Source: Bacteroidetes bacterium GWF2_40_14
GTDB taxonomy: Bacteria; Bacteroidota; Bacteroidia; Bacteroidales; UBA932
Reading direction: 5' to 3'
Length of the DNA stretch: 64,000 nt
NCBI GenBank assembly: GCA_001769195.1
Contig: MEOK01000005.1
Coordinates: forward strand, 1-64,000
The position numbers were made by a program, and so were the translations under genes. Each line of letters starts with the position of its first letter. Position 1 is the stretch's first letter. This document shows, piece by piece, positions 20,374 through 54,079 of the stretch. Below the pieces are notes generated by a model that was not told the DNA's origin, ran no database searches, and worked only from the letters and a program-made list of their open reading frames with translations.

Positions 20374-20420
20374 GGTACTGCAAATGGTACACAGCCCTTT
20401 TATTGTGTTCTTGCAGTACC
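20374..20420 (-). repeat. Inverted repeat spanning the integrase stop codon
   Basis: GGTACTGCAA (20374-20383) and TTGCAGTACC (20411-20420) are perfect complements flanking the int stop, with a further GGTAC copy inside. No long T-run follows on minus. It may be a terminator or an arm-type integrase site. The rest of the 20273-20399 gap shows nothing recognisable. Confidence 0.45.
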
Positions 20421-21740
20421 ATTTTTGTTGTTAAAAAACTTGCTTTTCCTTGCCCTCTCTGCGTTTTGCTTCTGTGTAGACCTGATATATTTGATTGTTG
20501 TGGTTAGTTTGGAATGTCCAAGCATTTCAGATATAATGTCAATTTGCAGGTCGTTTAGTGAGGCATTTGTTGCAAAGGATCTTCTAGCGGTATGTGTTGA
20601 TACAAGTTTCCATTTTGGTTGTATAATTTCGATCTGCTCTCCGGCAATATGCTTGTTCACTGCAATTGGTTTTGTCAATCCGGCCAAAAGTGCAATTTCC
20701 TTAATATGTCCGTTGAGTTTTTGTTCTGATATCGTATTGCTGAGATCAAATCCACTTTCAAGAATTTCTTTGACAACCCAGTGAATCGGAATTGTAACCC
20801 ATTTTTCTGACTTCTGGGTTTTTTTGTACACATAGTCGCTGTCAAAATTGTACTCATTGAGTCGTTTGAAGTCAGAAACCCTGAGAGCAGTGTAGCATCC
20901 GATTATGAACAGGTTCTTGCTGTGGGTTAATGCTATTGATTTTTGAAGTGCCTGATTGTTGTCAAGTGTTGGCCAGTGTTCCTTAATCAACTCAGTAGTG
21001 ATATTCATGTTGTGAATTTTGAGCAATTCCTCTTCGTCAAGGTATACAAAATCTGTATCTTTTCGTGGGCCGATGAATTCAGTCACCCCGGGCAATTCAA
21101 GATTGTGTATTTTGTCAACTGTCTTTGCCTGTTTGTAAAGGAATTTTAGGCTGTTTACAATGTTCCCGAAATAATTTGTTGAGAACAGGTTGGTTTTAGA
21201 AATCGGTATTGACGGATCTTTTGGAATAGAGAAAAACCACTTCCGGAAATTAGAATAGAAATCAATGTCGATATCTATGAAATTGATCGTTGTCTTTTTG
21301 AACTGTTCGTATTCTTTAAGCTTGTTGAGAGTATTTGTATACTTCTGCGTTGACGGTCTCTTTTTAACACCGGTGTTTCGTGCCAGGTATATTTCTATGT
21401 ACTTGCAAACAGATATTGTAGTCTGTTCGTCTGCTTTTTCTCTTTTGTATAGAAATTGGTCAAGTTTCTCAAAAAAATCTTTCTCTGATGGTGTTTCTTT
21501 AAAGTCTTTGAAGAATTCTACAGCCTTGTCTGCAGCAGAGATCCATTTGCTGATCTGTTTGTTTATGTATTCTCCTTCCGGATTCTGTGCTGTTACGCGT
21601 ACCCTTTTCTTTGCCAAACTCCAGAGCCTTGGCTCAACAGATTCAGAGATGCTTTTTTTGTATTTCTTTCCGCGAAAATTGACCAGTATTGCTATTGGTG
21701 ACTTTGATCTACTTTTATTTGTAAGAATGAAAGTTGCCAT
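20400..21740 (-). CDS. Tyrosine-type site-specific integrase
   Basis: The 446-aa protein has an arm-binding-like N-terminus (1-100), a SAM-like core-binding domain (about 110-205) and a catalytic domain with TALRVSD (Arg287), THTARRSFAT (His383, Arg386), GHS (His409) and the Tyr418 nucleophile in TTTIKYI. It should integrate and excise this element at the adjacent tRNA/tmRNA end. Its ATG overlaps the stop of the lipoprotein gene (TAATG), so it is the last gene of the lysogeny operon. Confidence 0.95.
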   Translation of the reverse strand: MATFILTNKSRSKSPIAILVNFRGKKYKKSISESVEPRLWSLAKKRVRVTAQNPEGEYINKQISKWISAADKAVEFFKDFKETPSEKDFFEKLDQFLYKREKADEQTTISVCKYIEIYLARNTGVKKRPSTQKYTNTLNKLKEYEQFKKTTINFIDIDIDFYSNFRKWFFSIPKDPSIPISKTNLFSTNYFGNIVNSLKFLYKQAKTVDKIHNLELPGVTEFIGPRKDTDFVYLDEEELLKIHNMNITTELIKEHWPTLDNNQALQKSIALTHSKNLFIIGCYTALRVSDFKRLNEYNFDSDYVYKKTQKSEKWVTIPIHWVVKEILESGFDLSNTISEQKLNGHIKEIALLAGLTKPIAVNKHIAGEQIEIIQPKWKLVSTHTARRSFATNASLNDLQIDIISEMLGHSKLTTTIKYIRSTQKQNAERARKSKFFNNKNGTARTQ

Positions 21741-31025: not shown

Positions 31026-32342
31026 ATGAAACCGCGTACTAAACTACAATTTGAAGTTTTAAGTTGCAGCAAGGGCCTTATTGACTACGAACATGAAATA
31101 TTATCCTTTGCTAAGGATAAATGTTTAGAGAATAAAGGTTTTGCAACAAAAAAACGTGTCGTTTGCATGAACTGTGGAGAGCGTTTTTCTACAGACGTGG
31201 TAAAGAAAAAACGTGCAGAATGCCCACATTGTCAAAAAAAGCTGACAATAATTAGCTCACGTTGTACAACAGACAAGCAGCATATATTTATAGGCTTTGC
31301 TCAAATATATAGTGAGTTCCAGGTTATAAGATATTTTGAGATTTATTCCCATCATTCTGAAAACAAAGCACCAAAGTATTACTGCAGCGAAATATTGCAG
31401 CAATGGTTTTCGGATAATGGAAAGCTTACAATAGTCTCAAGGAAGCATAATCTAAATGCCTACTGCGACTCTTGGGGTGGAGACATGGAGATCAGAAAAG
31501 AAATTACCCATTACTATAGTTACACTCCAAATAAATTCGATTGTTTAGCAGACTTTTGGTTCCCGGAATCAGTATTTATGCACAAATACTCAAAGTATGG
31601 TATTAACGGCAACTTAAGGTCCATAACCTTTAAACAAGCAGTTAGATCTATTCCTATTAACCCAAGGCTGGAAACTCTTCTCAAAGGCAAGCAATATGAG
31701 TTATTGTCATACTATTACAGCAAAGGTATTTCAAACGATATATGGGCGTCTATAAAGATTTGCATGCGCAATAATTATTCAATAAAGGATGCTTCAATAT
31801 GGTCAGATTATGTTGATCTTCTCATGTATTTCCAGAAGGATACTCACAATGCGTTTTATGTTTGTCCAAAAAACCTCAAAAAAGCCCATGACCGACTTGT
31901 TGAGAAGAAACGCAAAATTCAAACAATGCAACAGGCTGAACGTAAACGCAAGCAAGCCAATGAATGGGAGAAGCAATTTAATAAAATGAAGGCACATTTA
32001 CTGGGTATTCGTTTCTCTGACGGCAAGATCACTATCAAGACACTGGATAGTGTGCAGGAATATCTGGAAGAGGGCGATGCGTTACATCATTGCGTTTTTA
32101 CAAACGAATATTTCTTGAGGAAGGATTCTATTTGCCTGTCTGCAAGGATCGATGAAAAACCGGTTGAAACAATAGAACTATCCCTGTCAAAAATGGATAT
32201 CGTGCAGTGCCGGGGACTGCATAATGCAATTACTCCATATCATGATGCTATAGTCAGTCTTGTAAAGGACAATATCAATGTCATCAAGTCAAGATACCAT
32301 ACAAGCCATAAAGTTAAAACAGTTAAACAGATAAACAATTAA
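31026..32342 (+). CDS. PcfJ-like protein
   Basis: The 438-aa protein has a zinc ribbon near its N-terminus (CMNC at 47-50, CPHC at 66-69) and a C-terminal PcfJ-like domain with a conserved GDALHHCVFTNEYF motif and ARIDEKPVETIELSL. PcfJ-like proteins accompany PcfK in conjugative elements and phages and are thought to bind nucleic acid; activity is not established. Confidence 0.85.
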   Translation: MKPRTKLQFEVLSCSKGLIDYEHEILSFAKDKCLENKGFATKKRVVCMNCGERFSTDVVKKKRAECPHCQKKLTIISSRCTTDKQHIFIGFAQIYSEFQVIRYFEIYSHHSENKAPKYYCSEILQQWFSDNGKLTIVSRKHNLNAYCDSWGGDMEIRKEITHYYSYTPNKFDCLADFWFPESVFMHKYSKYGINGNLRSITFKQAVRSIPINPRLETLLKGKQYELLSYYYSKGISNDIWASIKICMRNNYSIKDASIWSDYVDLLMYFQKDTHNAFYVCPKNLKKAHDRLVEKKRKIQTMQQAERKRKQANEWEKQFNKMKAHLLGIRFSDGKITIKTLDSVQEYLEEGDALHHCVFTNEYFLRKDSICLSARIDEKPVETIELSLSKMDIVQCRGLHNAITPYHDAIVSLVKDNINVIKSRYHTSHKVKTVKQINN

Positions 32343-37171: not shown

Positions 37172-38011
37172 ATGGGTAAAACAGAACGAGCAATAGAAAC
37201 TATACAGAAAGCTGAATCTTTAGCACTGAAATATCAGGATTATGGCTTTCATTTAGCTTTTTCAGGTGGAAAGGATAGCCTTGTTATTTACAAACTTGCT
37301 CAAATGGCAGGTGTTAAATTTCGTCCGGTTATGCAAGTCACAAGTATTGATCCTCCGGAATTAATGAGGTTTGTGCGGTTAAATTATCCGGATGTAATTA
37401 TGGAAAGACCGGAGATGAATTTTTATAAATTGATTATAAAATATATGTCTCTTCCAACAATGAATAGAAGATTTTGCTGCAAGGAACTTAAAGAGGGTTC
37501 TGGTTCAGGAACGGTTACTATTATAGGCATAAGAAAAGCAGAAAGTAGTAAAAGAGCAAAGCGCAACGAATTAGAAATAAGTGGAAGAAAATACTCGAAT
37601 AGTCTTGATCAATTTAATATTGATAACGAGAATCAGGTATTATGCATTAAAGGAAAAGACAAAATACTACTTTCTCCAATTATTGACTGGTCTCATGCAG
37701 ATGTGTGGAGTTTTATTAGAAAGAACGATATGGAATATTGTAGTCTTTATGATATGGGTTATAATAGAATAGGGTGCATGTTTTGTCCATATAGTTCAAA
37801 AAAATCAAAACAAAGGGATAGGCAAAATTTCCCTGGGGTTGAAAGAGAAATCAAGAAATCTATTTACGAGTTGTGTAAAATGGGCAAATATACAGAGTTT
37901 AATATGGATGTTGACGAAGTATTCAATTGGTGGGTATCAGGTGTAAGTGTTGCTAAATATAAGGCAATGAAACAAAATTATACAATAGACTATAATTTTA
38001 ATAAGCAATAA
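37172..38011 (+). CDS. PAPS/APS reductase-like (adenine nucleotide alpha hydrolase) enzyme with Fe-S signature
   Basis: The 279-aa protein has the PP-loop SGGKDS (31-36), a paired Cys102-Cys103 (RRFCCKEL) and GCMFCPYSS (Cys202, Cys205). CC...CxxC is the [4Fe-4S] signature of assimilatory APS reductases, and DndC-like enzymes share it. Many phages carry such proteins, whose substrate is unknown. No dndB, D or E neighbours are present, so DNA phosphorothioation is not supported by context. It sits 9 bp before a radical SAM gene, suggesting a two-enzyme sulphur- or radical-based step. Confidence 0.85.
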   Translation: MGKTERAIETIQKAESLALKYQDYGFHLAFSGGKDSLVIYKLAQMAGVKFRPVMQVTSIDPPELMRFVRLNYPDVIMERPEMNFYKLIIKYMSLPTMNRRFCCKELKEGSGSGTVTIIGIRKAESSKRAKRNELEISGRKYSNSLDQFNIDNENQVLCIKGKDKILLSPIIDWSHADVWSFIRKNDMEYCSLYDMGYNRIGCMFCPYSSKKSKQRDRQNFPGVEREIKKSIYELCKMGKYTEFNMDVDEVFNWWVSGVSVAKYKAMKQNYTIDYNFNKQ

Positions 38012-38020
38012 AAAAATAAT

Positions 38021-38860
38021 ATGAAAACATTTAAAGGAAAAGCAATTTATCAACCGGCAGGCAAGGCAAAAGAGTATGCTGAATGGGCCTGTAATTTCTA
38101 CGTAGGCTGTTCAAACGGCTGTGATTACTGCTACCTGAAAAAAGGCAGGGGAGCCGCTATTTTAGGCGGAAATGTCCCTACACTAAAGAAGTGCTTCAAG
38201 GATGAAGTACACGCCTTAGAGGTGTTTGAAATGGAACTAAAAGCGAATCTTCCGGAACTGCAAAAACACGGTTTGTTTTTTAGTTTCTCCACTGATCCAA
38301 TGTTGCCGGAAACAATTGCAATGACTTATCAGGCTTTAGTAGTTTGCTCTAAGTTTAAGATTCCTGTCAAGATTTTAACTAAGGTTGAAAAATTCATTGA
38401 TCTGAAAATATTTGAAATTGACGGCAATAAAGGCTGTTCAATATTCGACCTTCCAAATAATGCAAAATGCAATATTGCTTTCGGCTTCACCCTTACCGGA
38501 CACGATGAACTGGAACCCGGAGCATCGACCAATCAGGAGCGAATTGAGGCAATGAAAAAACTACACGATGCAGGGTTCAAGACATTCGCAAGCATAGAGC
38601 CGGTTATTGATTTTAAGAGCAGCATTGAAATGATTGTACGCACAGCAGGGATATGTGACCTGTTAAAAATAGGGCTTGAGTCGGGCAAGAAATATGATAA
38701 AAACGAACTTTTTAATTTCATGAATGCAGTAATCTTTATAGCAAGAAGAACACGAAAAGTGTATTTTAAAGACTCTCTTCTCAAAGCTGCCTGGATAGAG
38801 AGGTCAGAACTTCCTGCAAATTGCGTAAACAGGGATTATAACATATTTAAAGAACTATAA
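38021..38860 (+). CDS. Radical SAM protein (SPL-like family)
   Basis: The 279-aa protein has the canonical CX3CX2C cluster motif (Cys30, Cys34, Cys37 in VGCSNGCDYCYL) and a TIM-barrel-like body with FFSFSTDPMLPE and TFASIEPVIDF stretches, resembling the spore-photoproduct-lyase-like radical SAM group. The C-terminus has no extra cluster. Substrate unknown. It follows the PAPS-reductase-like gene and precedes a small Cys-rich protein by 1 base. Confidence 0.85.
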   Translation: MKTFKGKAIYQPAGKAKEYAEWACNFYVGCSNGCDYCYLKKGRGAAILGGNVPTLKKCFKDEVHALEVFEMELKANLPELQKHGLFFSFSTDPMLPETIAMTYQALVVCSKFKIPVKILTKVEKFIDLKIFEIDGNKGCSIFDLPNNAKCNIAFGFTLTGHDELEPGASTNQERIEAMKKLHDAGFKTFASIEPVIDFKSSIEMIVRTAGICDLLKIGLESGKKYDKNELFNFMNAVIFIARRTRKVYFKDSLLKAAWIERSELPANCVNRDYNIFKEL

Positions 38861-39758: not shown

Positions 39759-40169
39759 ATGAAGATTTACACGTCTTATTTCGGAAATTTAAGGAACCTG
39801 GCAAAGAGTGGGATATGTCCTATAAACATTGCTTTGTGGCAACCAAAGTTCTTTGGTGGTTTTTCCATATTGATACTTGCACCAAAGAGATACATGCTTA
39901 ATGACAGCCTTACAGAAGAGCAGTATACGAACATGTACAAAAAGGATGTTCTGGCTCAGGTCAACCCCTCTCAGATAATATCAATGATCAAAGCGTATGG
40001 AAATGGAAACGATGTCGCTTTGTTATGTTATGAAAAGCCAAGTGACTTTTGTCACAGGCACATATTTGCAGAATGGTTTACAAGGACCACAGGTATTGAA
40101 GTAACGGAATTTGGTGTTTCTGCAGTCAAGGAAGAAAAGCCAAAGATTATTGAACAAACACTTTTTTAG
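39759..40169 (+). CDS. DUF488 family protein
   Basis: The 136-aa protein matches the DUF488 layout: MKIYTSYFGN at the start and LLCYEKPSDFCHRHIFAEW with the conserved Cys and His near the end. DUF488 proteins occur in phages beside ParB-like and modification genes; biochemical role unknown. It is the first gene after promoter P1. Confidence 0.8.
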   Translation: MKIYTSYFGNLRNLAKSGICPINIALWQPKFFGGFSILILAPKRYMLNDSLTEEQYTNMYKKDVLAQVNPSQIISMIKAYGNGNDVALLCYEKPSDFCHRHIFAEWFTRTTGIEVTEFGVSAVKEEKPKIIEQTLF

Positions 40170-40170
40170 T

Positions 40171-40632
40171 ATGATAATTAAAGTAAAACCCTTAACGTCA
40201 TGCCTTGGCAATCTGCTGAGCATCATTCGTATTGAAAGAGAATTTATAAAAGAGGAAAACACTTGCTTTAGGTCTTCGAAGTCAGATATTTCAAAATGTC
40301 TCAAGTCCATGGCAAGTGTTGGGCTGTACGAAAACAACAAGCTAATAGGCTTTGTTCTGGCACACTTCACGGAATACGGAACAGGATACATTGAAAAGGT
40401 CTTTGTAGTTCCTGAACTTCGCAACAAGGGATGCATGAAGCAGATGATGAATGAGTCTATGTCACTTCTTTTCAAGAACGGAGTAAAAGAGGTTTATACC
40501 ATGGTCTCTCCTGAAAACGAAGTAAGCCTTAAGGGTTTCGTTGATTGTGGATTCTGGTACTCATGGGGAACAGTGTATAATGGAAAGAAAAGACTGGTAT
40601 TAAAACGCATAGACAATGAAGCTTGTTATTAA
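40171..40632 (+). CDS. GNAT family N-acetyltransferase
   Basis: The start is ATG 40171 (MIIKVKPLTSC), one base after the DUF488 stop; the upstream frame overlaps that gene. The 153-aa protein has the GNAT acyl-CoA motif A at about 76-95 (IEKVFVVPELRNKGCMKQMM) and a motif B-like VDCGFWYSWG. It transfers an acyl group to an amine, target unknown. The gene overlaps the racemase-like gene by 17 bases. Confidence 0.85.
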   Translation: MIIKVKPLTSCLGNLLSIIRIEREFIKEENTCFRSSKSDISKCLKSMASVGLYENNKLIGFVLAHFTEYGTGYIEKVFVVPELRNKGCMKQMMNESMSLLFKNGVKEVYTMVSPENEVSLKGFVDCGFWYSWGTVYNGKKRLVLKRIDNEACY

Positions 40633-41479
40633 CAAAGCAGCACTGGAAAGCAATATCCAGCAAGCATCATTATTGACGAGTTGTCAGAACATCTCTTTGA
40701 TGATGAAAAGCTTTTACGATTATCTCTCAAAGGAAGCCGGGCTGAACATGATCAATTGCAACATGTTTGGCAACACAAAAAAACTGTGTGTGGGAAATAC
40801 TATCAACTATGTCATTAATGAAGAGTCAGAGGGTTATGAGGGATCATATATAACAAACATGGAAGCATTGTCAAGGTGTAAGACAGATATTGTTTACATA
40901 CCGGTAAACTTTCATGATGACAGGGAGGGTATAAATTCTGACTACATAACCCTTGCAAGGAAAGCGAGCATGGACAAATCTGTATATCTGTCAATCACAT
41001 CAGGTTGTATCAATGATCGCGGTCCTACCATGTTGGAGTTGGAGAATTTCTGTTCATACATACAGAAGACATATGGTTTTATTCAAGGAATAAGCCTTGG
41101 AGGAAGCTACTATCTGCAATTCAGGAAACTTCCTGAATTTGTCTACGAAATACGCATTGGTGAGTATATGCTGTTTGGCACTATCCCTTATTGTGACACT
41201 CCAGAATTAAACGGATTCAACGCATTAGAGGTTGAGCTTGAGGTTGTTGAGACATACAGAGAAAGGCAGCACATACTTGTAAGAGGAGGTTACGCCAATC
41301 TTGACGCAAAATATTGTTATTTATTATCAGGTGGAGCTCTTGAATATGTTGACAGTTCGAGCGAATACACTATTTACAAAGACAGGTTTTCGATCTATAA
41401 AACAGGTAGCAAGATCCGTCTTATTCCTAACTACAAATCATTAGTAAAGCTTCAATATGTGGAACGAGAATATAAGTAA
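40616..41479 (+). CDS. Alanine-racemase-like PLP-dependent (fold type III) protein
   Basis: The 287-aa protein looks like the amino-acid/ornithine racemase group. INKAALESNIQQ opens the barrel. ISLMMKSFYDYL places Lys31 where the PLP lysine falls. GISLGGSYYLQF and YEIRIGEYMLFGTIP match the phosphate-binding and IRIGE stretches. It would racemise or otherwise activate an amino acid for the amidoligase next door. The C-terminal domain is shorter than in alanine racemase, so activity may differ. Confidence 0.65.
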   Translation: MKLVINKAALESNIQQASLLTSCQNISLMMKSFYDYLSKEAGLNMINCNMFGNTKKLCVGNTINYVINEESEGYEGSYITNMEALSRCKTDIVYIPVNFHDDREGINSDYITLARKASMDKSVYLSITSGCINDRGPTMLELENFCSYIQKTYGFIQGISLGGSYYLQFRKLPEFVYEIRIGEYMLFGTIPYCDTPELNGFNALEVELEVVETYRERQHILVRGGYANLDAKYCYLLSGGALEYVDSSSEYTIYKDRFSIYKTGSKIRLIPNYKSLVKLQYVEREYK

Positions 41480-43505
41480 AAGAACGTTTGGCTTTGAGTT
41501 GGAGTTTGCTGACTCTGACAAGACAAAAATAGTTCTCCCGGAGGGATATAAGTGGACAGACAACAATCTGACACTTATGAATAACTCAGATGGAAGTGCT
41601 GTCACTCACAATGGCCAGTTTGGAGGAGAGATCAACACACGTCCGTACTTGTACAACAAAGAAGACCTGAAGGAGCTGAAGAACTTCATAAATCTCCTGA
41701 AAGAGACTGGTGGGTACCTGATGTGGAACGAGGGCTTCGATGCTCATTTTTACGTTAGGGACCTTGGGTTAGATGTAATCAAGAGAATCTTTGCATTGTC
41801 CTATTATGTGGCCAAACCCATAAAAGAGATTTTTGATTTTCCGGAATGGTGGGACACAAAGTACCTTGCACCAACACCAACCTATGACGTAGTAAAGAAA
41901 GCACTTGCCACAGACAGCGAGGAGAACTTCATAAAGATATTCTGCAATGGTTCTGATCGTGGACATATCCGGTACTGGCTTAATTGTGTTCCGATTGAAA
42001 AGATAGGAACAATAGAGTTCCGGATATTCAACTCCTCGTGGGATTTTGAAAAGACTCTTGAGACTATAAAGTTCATGTATTCATTTGTCGATTATGCATA
42101 TATGAATGAAGACATTGAAAAATACATAGAGCTCAATAGTATTGAAAAATGTCTACAGGCATTCAATATAGACAGAGACAAGGTTCCAGGAAGACACAAG
42201 CCCCTCTTGTGGGCAGCTGAGATGTCTGATAATACAACGGTTGTTGGCGAGATGTTCAAGAAGTCACAGCGTATGTTGTCCTACATAAGCAAATCGGTAA
42301 AGCAGTTTGATACTGTTCGTGTTGTCAACTCCTTTTACATGGATATTGAGCAGGTTGTTTTCAATAAGATGGTTGTCTACACAAAGGAGTATTTCATCTA
42401 TGTCCTTTACAAAGCAATCAGGGGCGAAATAAAGGAATTAAGCTTCAATGATGAATACAGATTTCTCGACATATCCACAGACAAAGAGAGTGAGATTATA
42501 GCCACTCTTTTCTTGTTTAACTCCATTAAGAAGCACAAGAACTCAGCGGACATTTATCATAAATCCCTGTATGATGATTATCTTAACAAACTGGAGCATT
42601 ACAGGAGCAAATATGCAGAAAAGTACCAGAAGCTTGTTGACAATCTTTCCAAGAAAGATATTGAAATTGTTTATTGTGGAGATCTGGCCGATGCAATAGC
42701 GGACAGCACTGAGAAAGACGTTATAGTTTACCAGAATGAATTCAATTCAGGACTAAGAGCAGCCAGTAATGCATTAATGCGTGTTCTTGAAGAAGATTTC
42801 GGGTTTCAGGAAAGGAACAGAACAAAGTATGCAGATATTGACGAAGATCAGATCAATTACATTGCTATCTCACAGCATCAGTTTATGGGCCGAAAAAAGG
42901 TGTTTAAAGACAATAGAACCTGTCTTTACTCAAACATATCTGAATCAGGTGATAATGTCTTCACTAAGCGTTTTCTCACTCAACTAAAGTACAAACGTCT
43001 TCCGGATGGATATGAGCTTACTGAAAATAGCCGTCTTATGTTCATTCGTGCCTCGATGAGTGAGATTGACTACCTGAGAATGTTCTATCTGAAAAAGGAT
43101 ATCATCTTAGGATCTGCTCCGTTCTGTTATCTCTGGTTCCTGGACAAGTATGTGATAGGAGCCTGTATGGTCGATTTTTTCAAGATGTCTTCGTTTGGTG
43201 TGGACAATGCAAGCCTCAAGAGTGATTTTGTTATTGACAGCGATTTTCCGAAGCTGAGCAAGCTTCTGCTCATGGGCATTCTTTCAACCGAATTCAAGGA
43301 AGAAATTGACATTCGGTTCAAGAGAGAAATAAACTCATTTTACACGTCGGTTTTTACAGATAAACCAGTATCAATGAAATACAGGGGAGTGTTTGAGCTA
43401 TATGACAGGCAGATCGGAAAACTACACTACAGGCAGGAGTCAGGAAAGCTTGGATCATTGGAAGAAATAATAAAGGACTTTTTAAAACGAAATTACAAGA
43501 AATAG
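41457..43505 (+). CDS. Amidoligase family protein with large C-terminal extension
   Basis: Residues 1-240 match the Amidoligase_2 (glutamine-synthetase-fold) family: FGFELEF (Glu14, Glu16), SDGSA (45-47), GGEINTRPY (Glu58), FDAHFYV (His97), Arg172 and Asn176 in IRYWLNC, and TIEFRIF (Glu187, Arg189). Such enzymes form amide bonds between an amino acid and an acid or peptide using ATP. The remaining 440 residues include a region at about 540-655 (YVIGACMV, PKLSKLLLMG, TDKPVSMKYRGVF) that recalls GNAT/Mom-like DNA-modifying domains; this is tentative. It overlaps the racemase-like gene by 23 bases. Confidence 0.8.
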   Translation: MWNENISKRTFGFELEFADSDKTKIVLPEGYKWTDNNLTLMNNSDGSAVTHNGQFGGEINTRPYLYNKEDLKELKNFINLLKETGGYLMWNEGFDAHFYVRDLGLDVIKRIFALSYYVAKPIKEIFDFPEWWDTKYLAPTPTYDVVKKALATDSEENFIKIFCNGSDRGHIRYWLNCVPIEKIGTIEFRIFNSSWDFEKTLETIKFMYSFVDYAYMNEDIEKYIELNSIEKCLQAFNIDRDKVPGRHKPLLWAAEMSDNTTVVGEMFKKSQRMLSYISKSVKQFDTVRVVNSFYMDIEQVVFNKMVVYTKEYFIYVLYKAIRGEIKELSFNDEYRFLDISTDKESEIIATLFLFNSIKKHKNSADIYHKSLYDDYLNKLEHYRSKYAEKYQKLVDNLSKKDIEIVYCGDLADAIADSTEKDVIVYQNEFNSGLRAASNALMRVLEEDFGFQERNRTKYADIDEDQINYIAISQHQFMGRKKVFKDNRTCLYSNISESGDNVFTKRFLTQLKYKRLPDGYELTENSRLMFIRASMSEIDYLRMFYLKKDIILGSAPFCYLWFLDKYVIGACMVDFFKMSSFGVDNASLKSDFVIDSDFPKLSKLLLMGILSTEFKEEIDIRFKREINSFYTSVFTDKPVSMKYRGVFELYDRQIGKLHYRQESGKLGSLEEIIKDFLKRNYKK

Positions 43506-43506
43506 C

Positions 43507-43665
43507 ATGAGTAAGGAACGTAAGGTGGTTTTCACCCCTAAAAGAAAAGGTCTTCCACTCAATTCGAGGCGCGAATCAAAGAACACTCTTTGCCCTTGTG
43601 GAAGTGGTTTAAAAGCAAATAAATGCTGTGGCTCAGAAACAGAATTTTATACTAAAAGCAAATAA
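43507..43665 (+). CDS. SEC-C motif miniprotein, 52 aa
   Basis: A complete frame from ATG 43507 encodes a basic N-terminus (VVFTPKRKGLPLNSRRESK) and the zinc motif CPCGSGLKANKCCG, an exact C-x-C-x8-CC SEC-C knuckle (Cys29, 31, 40, 41). It begins 1 base after the amidoligase stop and ends 1 base before ParB, so it belongs to the module, probably as a nucleic-acid or protein adaptor. Confidence 0.85.
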   Translation: MSKERKVVFTPKRKGLPLNSRRESKNTLCPCGSGLKANKCCGSETEFYTKSK

Positions 43666-43666
43666 G

Positions 43667-44359
43667 ATGTCGAGATTTAAAATCAAAATAGTACAGATTT
43701 CAGAGATTGATCTGATTGACAAAAATGCTCACTATATGGAGCAGGCCACATTCAGGCAACTTGTCGCAAACATAAAGAGGGACGGAGAATTGTCTTCTGT
43801 TCCTTTTTGTATAGAGAAAGAAAATGGAAGATACCTTGCTGTATCAGGAAACCACAGGGTACAAGCAGCAAAGATGGCCGGACTTACACAAATACCAGTA
43901 ATGTACGCACTGGAACAGGATATCACACATGACGAGATGAGGGCGATACAACTTTCCCACAACTCCATAAAAGGACAGGATGACGCTGAAATACTGAAGG
44001 AACTGCTCGATGAAATAAAGGACACGGCAATGAAAGAGTATGCACACATCTCTCAGGAATACCTTGCCGAGATGGAAAGAATGGACTATACCATTGAAAT
44101 GCCATCAAACGAGATTGTACCTGTCACGTTTATGTTCATAGATACAGCAAAGGCGAACATGGACAAGATATTTGCACAGCTGGATATCCTTACTCCGAGA
44201 GAGCTGGAGAACGTTACCTTGTTGCCTAAGGAAACACTAAAACGACTAAATGAAGTAAGCGCAAAGGTACAGGACAAATACAAGATCAAGGCACAAGTGC
44301 TTAGTATATGCAAGATGATTGAACTGGTAGATTATACATTGAACAATGGAGACGATTAA
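43667..44359 (+). CDS. ParB-like nuclease/CTPase-fold protein
   Basis: I start at ATG 43667 (MSRFKIKIVQISEID), directly after the SEC-C gene. The 230-aa protein has the ParB N-terminal fold: QLVANIKRDGELSSVPFCIE and the SGNHRVQAAKMAGL motif (GNHR at 61-64). Phage ParB-like proteins often accompany DNA-modification or packaging genes instead of partition systems, and no ParA is present. It overlaps the terminase small subunit gene by 14 bases. Confidence 0.88.
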   Translation: MSRFKIKIVQISEIDLIDKNAHYMEQATFRQLVANIKRDGELSSVPFCIEKENGRYLAVSGNHRVQAAKMAGLTQIPVMYALEQDITHDEMRAIQLSHNSIKGQDDAEILKELLDEIKDTAMKEYAHISQEYLAEMERMDYTIEMPSNEIVPVTFMFIDTAKANMDKIFAQLDILTPRELENVTLLPKETLKRLNEVSAKVQDKYKIKAQVLSICKMIELVDYTLNNGDD

Positions 44360-44765
44360 GAAAGAGCTTCCTGTTAACGTGGAAAACGCTGAGAAGAAGA
44401 AAGCAGAGACAACAAGGCAGAAGAAGAAAAGGTTTATAAACACCTTTAAACTAAGACTTTGTAATGTATCGAAGACATGCGAGGTGGTAGGCATATCACG
44501 TCAGACTTTTTATAGATGGTGTGACGAAGATGACAAATTTAAAAAAGGAGTCGCAGATGAGCAGGAAATGTTCTATGATGACATTGAAACTACGATGTAC
44601 AGCAAGGCGATTACGGACAAAGACACGGTAATGCTGATATGGATATCAAAGACAAAGATGAAGCACAGGGGATATGTTGAAAAGATCGAACAGGATGTCA
44701 CCGTCAACCCATTTTATGAGTTAATGAAAGAAACAAGTCAGGTAGTAGCAGATACAAAACAATAA
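44346..44765 (+). CDS. Terminase small subunit
   Basis: The 139-aa protein has a basic N-terminus and an HTH at about 35-60 (FKLRLCNVSKTCEVVGISRQ, then TFYRWCDED), the DNA-recognition part of phage terminases. It lies directly upstream of the large subunit. Confidence 0.85.
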   Translation: METIKKELPVNVENAEKKKAETTRQKKKRFINTFKLRLCNVSKTCEVVGISRQTFYRWCDEDDKFKKGVADEQEMFYDDIETTMYSKAITDKDTVMLIWISKTKMKHRGYVEKIEQDVTVNPFYELMKETSQVVADTKQ

Positions 44766-44766
44766 G

Positions 44767-46290
44767 GTGTTTAATGCAAAGGAAAAAAATGTATTTCTGT
44801 CATGGCAGGGTGACTGGAACCGGTTTGTAAGAGATGTCCTGAAAGCAAGGTTAGACAATGAGCAGCAGGATATCATTACATCTGTACAGCACAACTTAAT
44901 GACAGCGGTTGCAAGTGGCACAGCGAGAGGAAAAGACTTCGTAGCAGCTTGTGCCTCTCTTTGTTTTATGTACCTGACACCTCGCTTTGACAGCAGGGGA
45001 AACATGATTGAAAACACCAAGGTTGCAATGACGGCACCGACAGGCAGACAGGTAGGCAACATTATGACACCTGAGGTAAGGCGACTTTTCAGACAGGCCC
45101 GTTTTCTCCCGGGAAGAACTGTTTCAAACGACATAAGGACAGACAATGAGGAATGGTTTCTCACAGGTTTCAAGGCCGGTGATGATGCTACAGAGGCATG
45201 GTCAGGATTCCACGCAGCAAATACGATGTTCGTAGTTACAGAGGCAACCGGTATAAGTGAGGTTACATTTAATGCTATTGAGGGTAACCTGCAGGGAAAT
45301 TCAAGATTGCTGATAGTGTTTAATCCGAACATAACTTCAGGATATGCTGCACGAGCTATGAAGTCTGATCGATTCAACAAATTTCGTCTTAACTCTCTCA
45401 ATGCTGAGAACGTGGTAAAAAAACAAATCATAATCCCGGGACAGGTAGACTATGCATGGGTTAAAGACAAGGTTTCAAACTGGGCTTCTCCTATCATAGA
45501 AGACGAATTCAACGACGGAGAGGGAGACTTTAAGTTTGAAGATGGATTGTACAGACCAAACGACCTGTTCAGGGTAAAGGTTCTTGGAATGTTCCCGAAA
45601 GTAGCAGAAGATGTATTGATCCCTTACGAATGGATCGAGATTGCTAACGCCAAGTGGTTGGCTTATGACCAGCAAGATGTTCAGAAAGTCTACAATGGTG
45701 CAAAGACCATTGGAGCAGATGCTGCCGGTATGGGAAGAGACGAAAGCGTTATTTGCCACAGGTGCGACAGTTATGTATGGCCGTTTAAAACACATCAGAG
45801 CGCAGGTAAGGCAGATCACATGCATGTTGCTGGAATGTTGGTTCCGGACCTGAAAAAAGGCAAGAATAAGGTTTTTATTGATACAATAGGAGAGGGAGCC
45901 GGTATATACTCGAGACTCAGGGAGCTTGGTTACTTTAATGCCATATCCTGCAAATTCTCAGAGGGAGCAAAGGATCTTTCCGATATCACAGGAGTATACA
46001 CTTTTGCAAACATGAGAGCATATCTTTTTTGGTGTGTACGGGACTGGCTTAACCCAAAGAACGGCTTCAATGCAAAGTTGCCTCCAGATGACAAGTTCAT
46101 GGAAGAAGCAACAGACATTCACTACAAGTTCATGAGTAACGGAAGCATCATAATTGAACCGAAAGAAGACATTAAAAAAAGAATACACAGGTCAACAGAT
46201 AGATTTGATTCACTTGCAAACACGTTTTACCCTCATGTAGAGGAAACACAATCTTACTCTGAGGATAGTGTATTAAAAGACTTTTCATAA
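44767..46290 (+). CDS. Terminase large subunit
   Basis: The 507-aa protein starts with GTG one base after the small subunit. The ATPase P-loop is ASGTARGKDF (Lys56), with Asp after Lys as in some terminase subgroups. FVVTEATGISE and LLIVFNPN follow. The C-terminal nuclease shows TIGADAAGMGRDESVICHR and DTIGEGAG, with DSLANTFYPH near the end. It packages DNA into the prohead. Confidence 0.93.
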   Translation: MFNAKEKNVFLSWQGDWNRFVRDVLKARLDNEQQDIITSVQHNLMTAVASGTARGKDFVAACASLCFMYLTPRFDSRGNMIENTKVAMTAPTGRQVGNIMTPEVRRLFRQARFLPGRTVSNDIRTDNEEWFLTGFKAGDDATEAWSGFHAANTMFVVTEATGISEVTFNAIEGNLQGNSRLLIVFNPNITSGYAARAMKSDRFNKFRLNSLNAENVVKKQIIIPGQVDYAWVKDKVSNWASPIIEDEFNDGEGDFKFEDGLYRPNDLFRVKVLGMFPKVAEDVLIPYEWIEIANAKWLAYDQQDVQKVYNGAKTIGADAAGMGRDESVICHRCDSYVWPFKTHQSAGKADHMHVAGMLVPDLKKGKNKVFIDTIGEGAGIYSRLRELGYFNAISCKFSEGAKDLSDITGVYTFANMRAYLFWCVRDWLNPKNGFNAKLPPDDKFMEEATDIHYKFMSNGSIIIEPKEDIKKRIHRSTDRFDSLANTFYPHVEETQSYSEDSVLKDFS

Positions 46291-46307: not shown

Positions 46308-47738
46308 ATGATTGACATTAACAAAATTATTACGCCGGAAAGAAAATATGCCGACATTATTTCAGACTTGAAGAAGAAGTCTGTGGTTATTCCTGCATGG
46401 TCAGATCTGGAGAAGCTGTATATTCCAAAACAGCACAGAATCATTACCGACAAGAGTCTAAGGCCAAAGCCAAAGATAAAAGACGGTCAAAGAGAGATAC
46501 CTGCAAAAGTCACCTATGCTGCAGAGATGATCACAACAAACAGGATGACTCAAATGGCATTCTCTATACCTGTAAAAAGGATTTACAAAACAGACAAGGA
46601 TAAGACGAAAAAGGAACAGGCAGCTGCAATGGAAGCAATTTACAAACATGCAAGGATTGACGGTGTAAACATGAATCGTTGGAAAGCATATTTTGCATGT
46701 TGTGAGGTTATGACAATCTGGTACACAGTTGAAGAAGAGAACAAGCTTTATGGATTTGACAGTAAATTCAAGCTGAAATGCAGGAGTTATTCTCCGATGC
46801 CTCAGAAAACAAGCAAGATTACACAGGCTTCTTTATATCCGATCATTGATGAATATGAGGATATGATAGCAATGTCTTTTGAGTATGTTGTAGACAACAA
46901 TGGCGTTAAGAGTACATATTTTGAAACATATACGAAAACAGCCCATTACAAATGGGTGACAGAGGGAACAAAAGAAACTGATGTTGTAATTGATGGAGAG
47001 GTAATCAAGATAAAAAAGCATCCTCTTTTTTACGCATGGAGACCTGCTCCTATATATGAGGATATTTCAGATGATAGGGATGAGATTGAATTCACTTTGT
47101 CAAGGACCTCAGATATCATTCGCAGAAATTCTGCTCCGATTGTCAAGCTCATAGGTAAAACGATTGGTGAAACACCAGTTGGTGATAGAGCAAGGGAAGT
47201 CTATCAGATGGAGCTGGGTGGTGACGTTGACACAGTTTCTCCATCAATCTCTCCGGAATCTGCAAAGTACTACGTTTCTACTCTCAAGCAGAACATGGAA
47301 GAGTATACGCAGCTTCCTAACCTGTCATTGGAGAACATCAAGTCAATATCTGCAATCAGTGGAGAGGCCAGAAAGACTTTACTTACAGATGCACACTTGA
47401 AAGTAGGAGAGGAGAAGCATGATATCATCTATGCTCTTGACAGGGAATGTAACATCATAAAAGCATTCCTTGGTGAAATGAATACAGCATGGAAAGAAAG
47501 CATCAAAGACCTGTCTGTAGAGCATGTTATCACTCCGTTTATTCAAAATGATGAAGTTGCTGAAATAGACAAGACGATGAAAGCAACTGGAGGAAAGGCA
47601 GTCATGGCTCAAAAAACAGCAATATCCATGCTTGGAATGGTTGAAGATCCGGAAGCAGAAATGCTACTCATAAAGGCAGAAGAGGATGCTGATGCAGAAA
47701 GAACAAGAAAAACAGATGTCTTTACTAATGCTGAATAG
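46308..47738 (+). CDS. Portal protein
   Basis: The 476-aa protein has a portal-like layout: KVTYAAEMITTNRMTQMAFS near the N-terminus, a middle wing domain, QLPNLSLENIKSISAISGEA near 345 and an acidic C-terminus. It sits between terminase and the minor head protein, the usual place. It forms the dodecameric DNA gateway. Confidence 0.85.
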   Translation: MIDINKIITPERKYADIISDLKKKSVVIPAWSDLEKLYIPKQHRIITDKSLRPKPKIKDGQREIPAKVTYAAEMITTNRMTQMAFSIPVKRIYKTDKDKTKKEQAAAMEAIYKHARIDGVNMNRWKAYFACCEVMTIWYTVEEENKLYGFDSKFKLKCRSYSPMPQKTSKITQASLYPIIDEYEDMIAMSFEYVVDNNGVKSTYFETYTKTAHYKWVTEGTKETDVVIDGEVIKIKKHPLFYAWRPAPIYEDISDDRDEIEFTLSRTSDIIRRNSAPIVKLIGKTIGETPVGDRAREVYQMELGGDVDTVSPSISPESAKYYVSTLKQNMEEYTQLPNLSLENIKSISAISGEARKTLLTDAHLKVGEEKHDIIYALDRECNIIKAFLGEMNTAWKESIKDLSVEHVITPFIQNDEVAEIDKTMKATGGKAVMAQKTAISMLGMVEDPEAEMLLIKAEEDADAERTRKTDVFTNAE

Positions 47739-52975: not shown

Positions 52976-54079
52976 ATGAATAAACCGTTATTTGATTTAG
53001 ATATCCCCGGGATGCAAGCCGAAGTTAGTTCTTACCAGCCAGGAAGAGCTTTCGCATGGCCTGTTCTGTTCCCGTTGAAATACACTCCTAAATTCGATAT
53101 CAAAGGTATCGAGGGTGAGGATGGAATTCCAATCGCAGCTGACAGGGTTGCCTTTAACGTTAAGTCACCGCTCAAGACTCGTAAAAAAGTCGGCTCATGG
53201 AGTGGAGAACTTGATAAGTTGTCTGTTTCTCAAGAGAAAGACGAGAAGAAAATCAATGAGTATGAGGATCTGAAAACTATTGCCGCTGCTAATACAGAGG
53301 ACAAGGAAGCTGCTCAGTACCTTGTTGACATGGTGTACGATGACATCAAATTTGTAAATGATGGTATTGATGCAAAGGTTGAGATTGATGCGCTTCGTAT
53401 CGGCTCACTTGCGAAGAAGACCTATCCTGCAAGTATCGAGGGAGATACAGCAACAGAAGATGTCATTGACTTCAACGTACCTGAAGGAAACTTCAAGTTT
53501 TCGAAGTGGAGTGGTGTAAATGCTGATCCTATTGCAGATGTTAAGACATGGCAAAAGTACATATCCGGCAAAGGTCTTAAAAAGCCTATGTTCGCATTCA
53601 TTGACGAAGACATGCTTGACGTTGTTCTGCAGAAAGATAAAACTTTGAAAAGAGTTTCTACTATCGTTCTTAACGCAACTGGTTTGCAAGCATCCGATAT
53701 CCTTACAATAGAAAACCTTAACAGATACATGAAACAAAAGGGTTTCCCTCAGTTCGTGTCTCTTGACAGCACTGTTCTTATACAGGATAAAAAGGGCAAT
53801 GAAACAACAGTAAGGCCATGGAACAAAAACGTTGTTGTTCTCTCTCCTGTCCCTCGTTTGGGATATACTTACTTCAAGCCAGTTCCGATCATAAAGAACA
53901 CTGATGCAATGCAAGTAAGAGGAGCATTTTCTAAAACTACTGTATACTCAGAGCTGAACCCTATGCTTGAGGTTACAATGTGTGAAGCTTATGTTCAACC
54001 GGCTCTCTCGAACAGGGCTTCTCTGATATTTGCAAATGTGGACAATGCTGCTGCGTGGGCAGATGGTGTAAGCGCATAA
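52976..54079 (+). CDS. Major capsid protein
   Basis: The 367-aa protein is of normal major-capsid length and in the expected place after scaffold and decoration genes. It has an N-terminal arm (FDLDIPGMQAEVSSYQPG), a helical P-domain region near 95-150 (KEAAQYLVDMVYDDIKFVND) and a C-terminal VRGAFSKTTVYSELNP. Its AGGAGG ribosome site supports high expression. Subfamily unclear. Confidence 0.8.
   Translation: MNKPLFDLDIPGMQAEVSSYQPGRAFAWPVLFPLKYTPKFDIKGIEGEDGIPIAADRVAFNVKSPLKTRKKVGSWSGELDKLSVSQEKDEKKINEYEDLKTIAAANTEDKEAAQYLVDMVYDDIKFVNDGIDAKVEIDALRIGSLAKKTYPASIEGDTATEDVIDFNVPEGNFKFSKWSGVNADPIADVKTWQKYISGKGLKKPMFAFIDEDMLDVVLQKDKTLKRVSTIVLNATGLQASDILTIENLNRYMKQKGFPQFVSLDSTVLIQDKKGNETTVRPWNKNVVVLSPVPRLGYTYFKPVPIIKNTDAMQVRGAFSKTTVYSELNPMLEVTMCEAYVQPALSNRASLIFANVDNAAAWADGVSA

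Follow-up and report, generated by a model that had tools for sequence, protein, structure and literature searches.

What would a phage-type locus make with an amidoligase, a racemase-like protein and an acyltransferase encoded side by side just ahead of its terminase, and on which molecule would they act? The question is raised by a gene row in a 64,000-nucleotide stretch of DNA from Bacteroidetes bacterium GWF2_40_14 (assembly GCA_001769195.1, contig MEOK01000005.1, positions 1 to 64,000), hereafter called the window. An earlier inspection made without database searches, the sequence-only reading, had suggested that the row produces an amino-acid-derived adduct, possibly on phage DNA before packaging or on a peptide. 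We analyzed the row with profile searches, structure prediction and surveys of related viral loci. We tentatively read it as the amidoligase-bearing form of a phage cassette whose most likely role is to modify phage DNA, at about the time when packaging starts, with an amino-acid-derived group. The sequence-only reading had overlooked two elements of this picture, a DAM-like domain in the middle of the amidoligase protein and a core cassette that occurs without any amidoligase.

The fusion protein and its core relatives

The amidoligase protein of the row is a fusion of three parts. Its N-terminus scored 37 bits against the Pfam model Amidoligase_2, for which the cut-off is 22, and E14, E16, E58, H97, R172, E187 and R189 of this domain were kept in all 27 aligned fusions (the window and its near-copy, L002 in our survey, being counted separately). 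We take the role of these acidic, histidine and arginine residues to be that described for the fold family. The C-terminal region held a GNAT fold, detected both by PF22559 and in a predicted structure, and the protein is therefore a ligase-acyltransferase fusion, as had been proposed when the C-terminus was read as the transfer step. The AlphaFold model covered residues 222-682, outside which the amidoligase domain lies, and was built from 52 sequences (predicted local distance difference test, pLDDT, 88.9; predicted template modelling score, pTM, 0.63). All 24 matches of this model to the PDB at E <= 0.001 in Foldseek were acetyltransferases by title, or Mom. Among viral models the top match was an 'Amidoligase enzyme' of Siphoviridae sp. 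ct4Uy2 (A0A8S5SJK3; 65% identity over the C-terminal 461 residues of the fusion), and weaker ones included Mom at rank 20 and the adenine-specific DNA methyltransferase of cyanophage S-TIM5 at rank 32 (E 8.5e-4). Searches of PDB sequences returned a single weak colicin match for the fusion profile (E 0.051) and, for the GNAT profile, weak matches to antitermination protein Q alone (E 0.53-1.1).

The earlier suggestion that the C-terminus is Mom-like stood at the level of the GNAT fold and fell at the level of kinship. Mom (8bv8_B) came at rank 22 in the PDB search with an E-value of 8.6e-4, as one of many GNATs by fold. PF25680, the Pfam family of Mom, was not matched at E <= 1, no Mom family of PHROGs was matched at E <= 0.1, and hhalign against nine Mom proteins gave a probability of 11.2% over 29 columns (pairwise E 0.0027). 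Since the GNAT fold is present and the sequence profiles hold no link to Mom, we did not count the domain as a Mom; membership was rejected on the sequence results from Pfam, PHROGs and hhalign, and we retained the resemblance in fold only. Phage Mu Mom is likewise a phage protein with the GNAT fold, but it is a single GNAT-type protein lacking a ligase domain and has no significant sequence-profile link to the window domain. Mom-like genes also occur near ParB: such a gene overlaps ParB in Microbacterium phage Antuna and lies one gene away from it in Arthrobacter phage Sonny (L227 3469-4621; L229 1-861).

The middle domain appears to be related to the phage DAM-like domains, to judge from sequence comparison. 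The match in the window itself was weak (Table 1); in one relative (L029) the domain matched PF22556, DAM-like-phage2, with an E-value of 1.5e-18, and in another (L033) Pfam found neither PF22555 nor PF22556. When the fusions were compared with the core proteins described below, hhalign aligned 411 columns at E 3.9e-33.

Relatives that lack the amidoligase carry a protein of ~430-470 residues, which in four loci scanned (L014, L015, L038 and L039) matched PF22555, DAM-like-phage1, together with PF22559. Examples of this protein are gp26 of Gordonia phage Soos and gp70 of Mycobacterium phage Megabear, in which the core comprises gp26-27 and gp70-71, respectively. We surveyed 85 such core loci, namely the best 80 of 380 viral matches and five others. 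A ParB profile match was found in 84 of them, always on the same strand and <= 600 bases from the core protein, and a DUF488 match in 63; profile searches found neither the racemase-like gene nor the amidoligase in any of the 85. Of the 79 loci that had enough sequence, 41 encoded a TerL-like protein <= 3.5 kb downstream, as judged with four single-sequence queries, three of them Pfam-named terminases and the fourth the unnamed protein of the window. Terminase adjacency as a universal rule was rejected, given the 38 of 79 loci with no TerL match to the four queries and the case of Megabear. When the GNAT domain served as the query of another scan, the best 80 of 310 matches gave 67 new loci, many on contigs already surveyed: 45 with start-to-stop DAM-like plus GNAT frames, 11 with amidoligase fusions and 11 that were incomplete or split. 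The core thus consists of a DAM-like plus GNAT protein and a ParB-like one; DUF488 often accompanies them, and the set often lies ahead of terminase. This core system (PF22555, PF22559, PF22751; PHROG 7858) shares with the window the C-terminal GNAT domain, the ParB-like neighbor, a DUF488 relative and a homology that appears to reach into the middle domain; it differs in having no amidoligase or racemase-like genes and in keeping two motifs, CSG and GYE, that are missing from the branch to which the window belongs.

These two motifs differed between the groups. CSG was present in 78 of 81 full-length core proteins and in none of 26 fusions, and the P-x-GYE loop (PP[YT]/GYE) in all 81 and in none of 26, respectively. 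The first count was partly selected because one of the core search patterns contained CSG; the GYE loop was in neither pattern. Conversely, V-N[SPA] occurred in the matching stretch of all 26 fusions versus the first 120 residues of six of the 81 core proteins, and N291 was retained in 27/27 aligned fusions. Other motifs were kept, with SDF in 27/27 fusions and SxKYRG in 26/27 (the remaining row is incomplete), and SMKYR in 80/81 core proteins. In a tree of 58 sequences, a branch supported at 98/97 separated the 14 fusions from the rest; L033 sat on a long branch and its placement is unsure. In one branch, then, the middle domain carries the V-N motif and neither CSG nor GYE, and an N-terminal amidoligase is fused to it; an Orr-like PLP-fold protein is encoded alongside. 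In one locus (L183 4303-6492) the DAM-like domain was interrupted at its PPTY loop by an insert that looked intein-like by eye. Inteins favor active sites. The insert was not accepted as a proven intein, as Pfam reported the DAM-like domain in two stretches and no intein family.

The fusions themselves have partly been named before. PHROG 2443, 'amidoligase enzyme', matched the middle and GNAT regions of two relatives (L029 and L144), and both this family and A0A8S5SJK3 differ from our description in being named for the amidoligase alone. Part of the window fusion was matched by 13 annotated phage records, none of which covered 80% of it. The domains of the core are already recognised, because Pfam carries DAM-like-phage1, DAM-like-phage2, GNAT-phage-like and DUF488-N3a. 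The core may also have been predicted in print already, because a 2023 comparative-genomics paper on the rhodanese-phosphatase superfamily reportedly predicts DUF488 nucleic-acid-modifying systems. Full-text literature searches, which covered few subscription papers, found nothing joining DUF488, DAM-like, GNAT, amidoligase and racemase, and no account of the amidoligase-racemase branch.

Gene partners of the amidoligase branch

The fusion was found on 26 viral contigs, the near-copy of the window among them, which formed 19 groups at 95% identity and 16 at 80%. The racemase-like gene, ParB and DUF488 were each present on 25, TerS on 24 and a free GNAT, by profile, on 16. The absent ParB (L012) and the absent DUF488 (L010) fell at contig ends. 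A search with the racemase-like protein only led to 20 loci, and all 20 contained the fusion. In the 25 DUF488 proteins of these contigs the C and CHR residues aligned throughout. The gene set was conserved as a unit in the neighborhoods of the relatives, in line with the sequence-only reading, for all but the SEC-C miniprotein. The latter was found only in L001 and L002, which represent the window itself or its near-copy, and was rejected as a conserved part of the cassette after no relative of it turned up among 13 loci (L003-L015).

We next consider the racemase-like protein. Neither Pfam nor NCBIfam (E <= 1) nor PHROGs (E <= 0.1) matched it, and the PDB sequences gave two chance-level matches only (E 0.25 and 0.4). 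Its AlphaFold model (pLDDT 88.3, pTM 0.86) resembled D-serine dehydratase (E 1.1e-12), alanine racemase (5.2e-12) and also D-threonine aldolase in Foldseek. There were 153 PDB chains at E <= 0.001, and the best 50 were racemases, dehydratases, aldolases and decarboxylases of pyridoxal 5'-phosphate (PLP) fold type III, with the barrel and the beta-domain. K31 was present in 25 of 25 racemase-like proteins and aligned with the lysine of two cellular proteins of the ornithine racemase (Orr) type; REG and GGS were likewise found in 25/25 and R-x-GE in 24/25. Against the NCBIfam Orr model the two cellular relatives gave E-values of 1e-83 and 5.9e-75, with scores under its cut-off. Because the sequence libraries gave no name, the identity of the protein rests on the predicted fold and these motifs, which point to a PLP fold-type-III, Orr-like protein with putative catalysis. 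It shares with the Orr and alanine racemase group the PLP fold III and the motifs, the PLP lysine included, but has 287 residues versus 365 and 367 in the two cellular proteins, and no NCBIfam Orr match (E <= 1). Among 395 genomes of the same phylum, racemase-like relatives were present in 39 (the window's own included). PF22559 was scarce, in 4 of the 395 and in 1 of 60 near relatives, with the window's own genome included in each count.

Further genes of amino-acid metabolism type stood between ParB and TerS in a few contigs. The sole amidoligase contig lacking the racemase carried an alanine-dehydrogenase-like gene there (L184 7108-8325; PF05222, E 1.6e-20), and a hidden racemase gene in this contig was rejected after six-frame reading and tblastn found none. 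ATP-grasp genes resembling D-Ala-D-Ala ligase occupied the same place in L151 (10577-11464, E 6.4e-22), its near-copy L152 (8261-9145, E 6.4e-22) and L207 (7165-8058, E 6.8e-18); in L033 such a match was below the cut-off (E 0.00054). These genes of a few relatives, together with the PLP fold-III model, strengthen the amino-acid chemistry originally proposed for the row.

A conserved GCGWxCC...GYKPIQCRTYPLW protein, either free or fused to GNAT, was also seen on 15 of the 26 contigs (for example L004 4222-5121, L028 4225-4656, L029 1652-2074 and L032 7487-8284), and for this part no Pfam family reached its cut-off. Amidoligases of PHROG 2443 are also listed in a paper on C. clostridioforme prophages, which differ in that a gamma-glutamyl cyclotransferase (PHROG 2520) is listed nearby (PMC11318856). 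We rejected such a partner here, as a motif pattern for it flagged none in eight loci.

The gene row in the window and its surroundings

The tight row running from DUF488 through GNAT, the racemase-like protein, amidoligase and SEC-C to ParB-like and into terminase was re-checked gene by gene, and all members and spacings were present as described. Every one lies on the plus strand, packed with 1-base gaps or overlaps of 14-23 bases (Table 1). The order was retained in relatives whose fusions are down to 27-31% identical, and the placement is therefore more than chance.

Table 1. Features of the cassette and the adjoining terminase genes in the window
Feature	Coordinates	Strand	Evidence and remarks
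DUF488-N3a protein, C...CHR motif	39759..40169	+	PF22751 E 1.4e-10 (Pfam)
Free-standing GNAT N-acyltransferase	40171..40632	+	PF00583 E 1.2e-11 (Pfam); best start ATG 40171; 1-base gap after DUF488
Shortened PLP fold-type-III enzyme, Orr-like, putative PLP lysine K31	40616..41479	+	Predicted fold and motifs; 17-base overlap with GNAT
Fusion, 682 residues: amidoligase, DAM-like-derived domain, GNAT-phage-like	41457..43505	+	23-base overlap with racemase-like gene
Amidoligase domain, fusion residues 1-218	41457..42110	+	PF12224 Amidoligase_2 E 4.4e-9, match at residues 56-210
Middle domain, fusion residues ~222-505, apparently related to phage DAM-like domains	42120..42971	+	PF22555 E 0.0084, below cut-off
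GNAT-phage-like domain, fusion residues 525-678, PVSMKYRG motif	43029..43490	+	PF22559 E 7.5e-27
SEC-C miniprotein, 52 residues	43507..43665	+	PF02810 E 3.6e-5; 1-base gap after fusion
ParB-like protein	43667..44359	+	PF02195 below cut-off; ATG 43667 the better start, alternative GTG 43628; 1-base gap after SEC-C
Terminase small subunit (TerS)	44346..44765	+	PHROG 4044 E 4.4e-11; 14-base overlap with ParB-like gene
Putative terminase large subunit (TerL)	44767..46290	+	PHROG 5902 E 2.5e-20, a PHROG with no named function; 1-base gap after TerS

The ParB-like protein matched ParB_N (PF02195) at E 4.5e-5, with 23.9 bits against a cut-off of 26.3, and a ParB of the PDB at 1e-5; it also matched the unnamed PHROG 7405 (E 3.8e-55). 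A survey reports two ParB-fold fusions, one with an acetyltransferase, which binds GTP, and one with DUF488 and helix-turn-helix, which binds CTP (PMC12704722). Neither Pfam nor NCBIfam gave a terminase family for the putative TerL, and we named it for its size and its place between TerS and the SPP1-type portal.

The near-copy, the viral contig IMG/VR 3300025154_002776, is near-identical to the window over the cassette, the proteins compared being 99.6-100% identical. Just upstream of the row, at 37172-38860, are genes for a PAPS-reductase-like protein (PHROG 424) and a radical-SAM protein (PA0069-like), and relatives of the latter turned up in several further surveyed loci. Other phage genes in the window encode a PcfJ-like protein at 31026, the SPP1-type portal at 46308 and capsid E at 52976; a tyrosine integrase at 20400-21740 on the minus strand is perhaps near one prophage end. 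Among 18 open reading frames of the window scanned with Pfam, none was named as an enzyme of 5-hydroxymethyluracil synthesis or as a kinase of thymidine hypermodification, for which no dedicated search was made.

The probable target and the proposed chemistry

The reading that the cassette decorates phage DNA has to be weighed against a number of our own results. Its several parts, namely the DNA target, the amino-acid donor, the D-form, the product, the clamp role of ParB and the protection, are inferred from sequence and predicted structure. With regard to a methyltransferase ancestry, the DAM-like label is Pfam's, the DAM-like profile found no methyltransferase among PDB sequences, the best 50 PDB rows of Foldseek for residues 222-682 include none, the viral methyltransferase match is weak, and the bulk of the clear hhalign signal between fusion and core falls, by eye, in the GNAT half. 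The failure of Mom kinship at the sequence level and the ParB_N score under the Pfam cut-off count in the same direction. The core survey was confined to the best 80 of 380 matches (with five others), and a search pattern that contained CSG inflated the count of that motif. Within it, DUF488 was absent from 22 of the 85 stretches, some of them incomplete, and where present lay on the opposite strand in 10 and >2 kb away in 10, and the 18 kb around the core in Megabear hold no annotated terminase. Lastly, D-Ala-D-Ala-ligase-like genes over the cut-off occur in three of the 26 amidoligase contigs, and the window is not one of them.

The last-named genes bear on an alternative in which the cassette modifies a peptide, a wall precursor or a surface protein and thereby brings about superinfection exclusion. 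Combined with racemase-like genes, those of L151/L152 and L207 would fit peptidoglycan chemistry, and the racemase-like protein has Orr-like kin. In the prophage paper, PHROG 2443 amidoligases are listed and factors of this kind are compared with surface modifiers (PMC11318856), a further point against a DNA target. We nevertheless consider a surface target unlikely, since the parts held in common with the core (the DAM-like-related domain, GNAT and ParB) do not suggest the envelope, and the core occurs with neither racemase nor amidoligase.

An RNA, a nucleotide or a nicotinamide adenine dinucleotide-like cofactor, instead of genomic DNA, seems to us a still weaker candidate for the target. 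DUF488 reportedly falls in a rhodanese-type group tied to sugar and RNA-end chemistry, and the GNAT and amidoligase folds are widely used; the DAM-like label and ParB, however, point to DNA. Rather improbable, too, is a division of labor in which the DAM-like/GNAT/ParB core modifies DNA and the amidoligase and racemase-like protein serve a separate substrate, being merely fused or linked to it. The pTM of the model (0.63), which leaves the relative placement of domains within residues 222-682 unsure, would allow for it, but the racemase-like gene, the amidoligase and the loss of the core motifs coincide on one branch. A DNA-binding or packaging scaffold, formed by a formerly methyltransferase-type domain and a GNAT domain without activity, is very improbable, for although CSG and GYE are missing from every fusion and the GNAT domain has by eye no obvious classic coenzyme A loop, the SDF, SxKYRG and SMKYR motifs and the amidoligase residues are kept almost throughout.

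Modification of phage DNA is the favored, if tentative, reading, and on the best reading of the amidoligase branch the donor would have changed from an S-adenosylmethionine (SAM) type to an amino-acid amide. In its favor are the domain assignments and the GNAT fold, the homology between fusion and core, the viral methyltransferase match, ParB in nearly all core and amidoligase loci, the motif differences and the single branch of the fusions, the TerL-like proteins downstream of many core loci, ParB near Mom-like genes in Antuna and Sonny, the published ParB-fold fusions, and the PLP fold together with the amino-acid genes of a few relatives. In the scheme that we propose, the PLP enzyme would make or interconvert an amino acid, perhaps in the D-form, and the ATP-dependent amidoligase would attach it through an amide bond. 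The middle, formerly methyltransferase-type domain would still hold the DNA base, an acylation or transfer would fall to the fused GNAT domain, and the free GNAT may cap an amine. ParB would clamp the enzyme onto phage DNA, and the outcome would be a base adduct derived from an amino acid and guarding against host nucleases. A bolder version, which we regard as speculative and on balance doubtful, is that a SAM-dependent protein of the DNA-methyltransferase type was turned into an ATP- and amino-acid-dependent DNA modifier. Here a PLP racemase, joined in some phages by a D-Ala-D-Ala-ligase-like enzyme, would supply the fused amidoligase, which would put an amide of a D-amino acid or small D-peptide on DNA bases before packaging.

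If this proposal is true, amide-linked amino acids would join the known decorations of phage DNA. The evolution of a donor-group swap would then be seen on a single branch of a tree, where methyltransferase-type motifs were lost, a ligase was gained and an amino-acid enzyme was recruited. It would also provide a concrete set of enzymes, possibly a new route by which phages get past nucleases, and a tool for labelling DNA.

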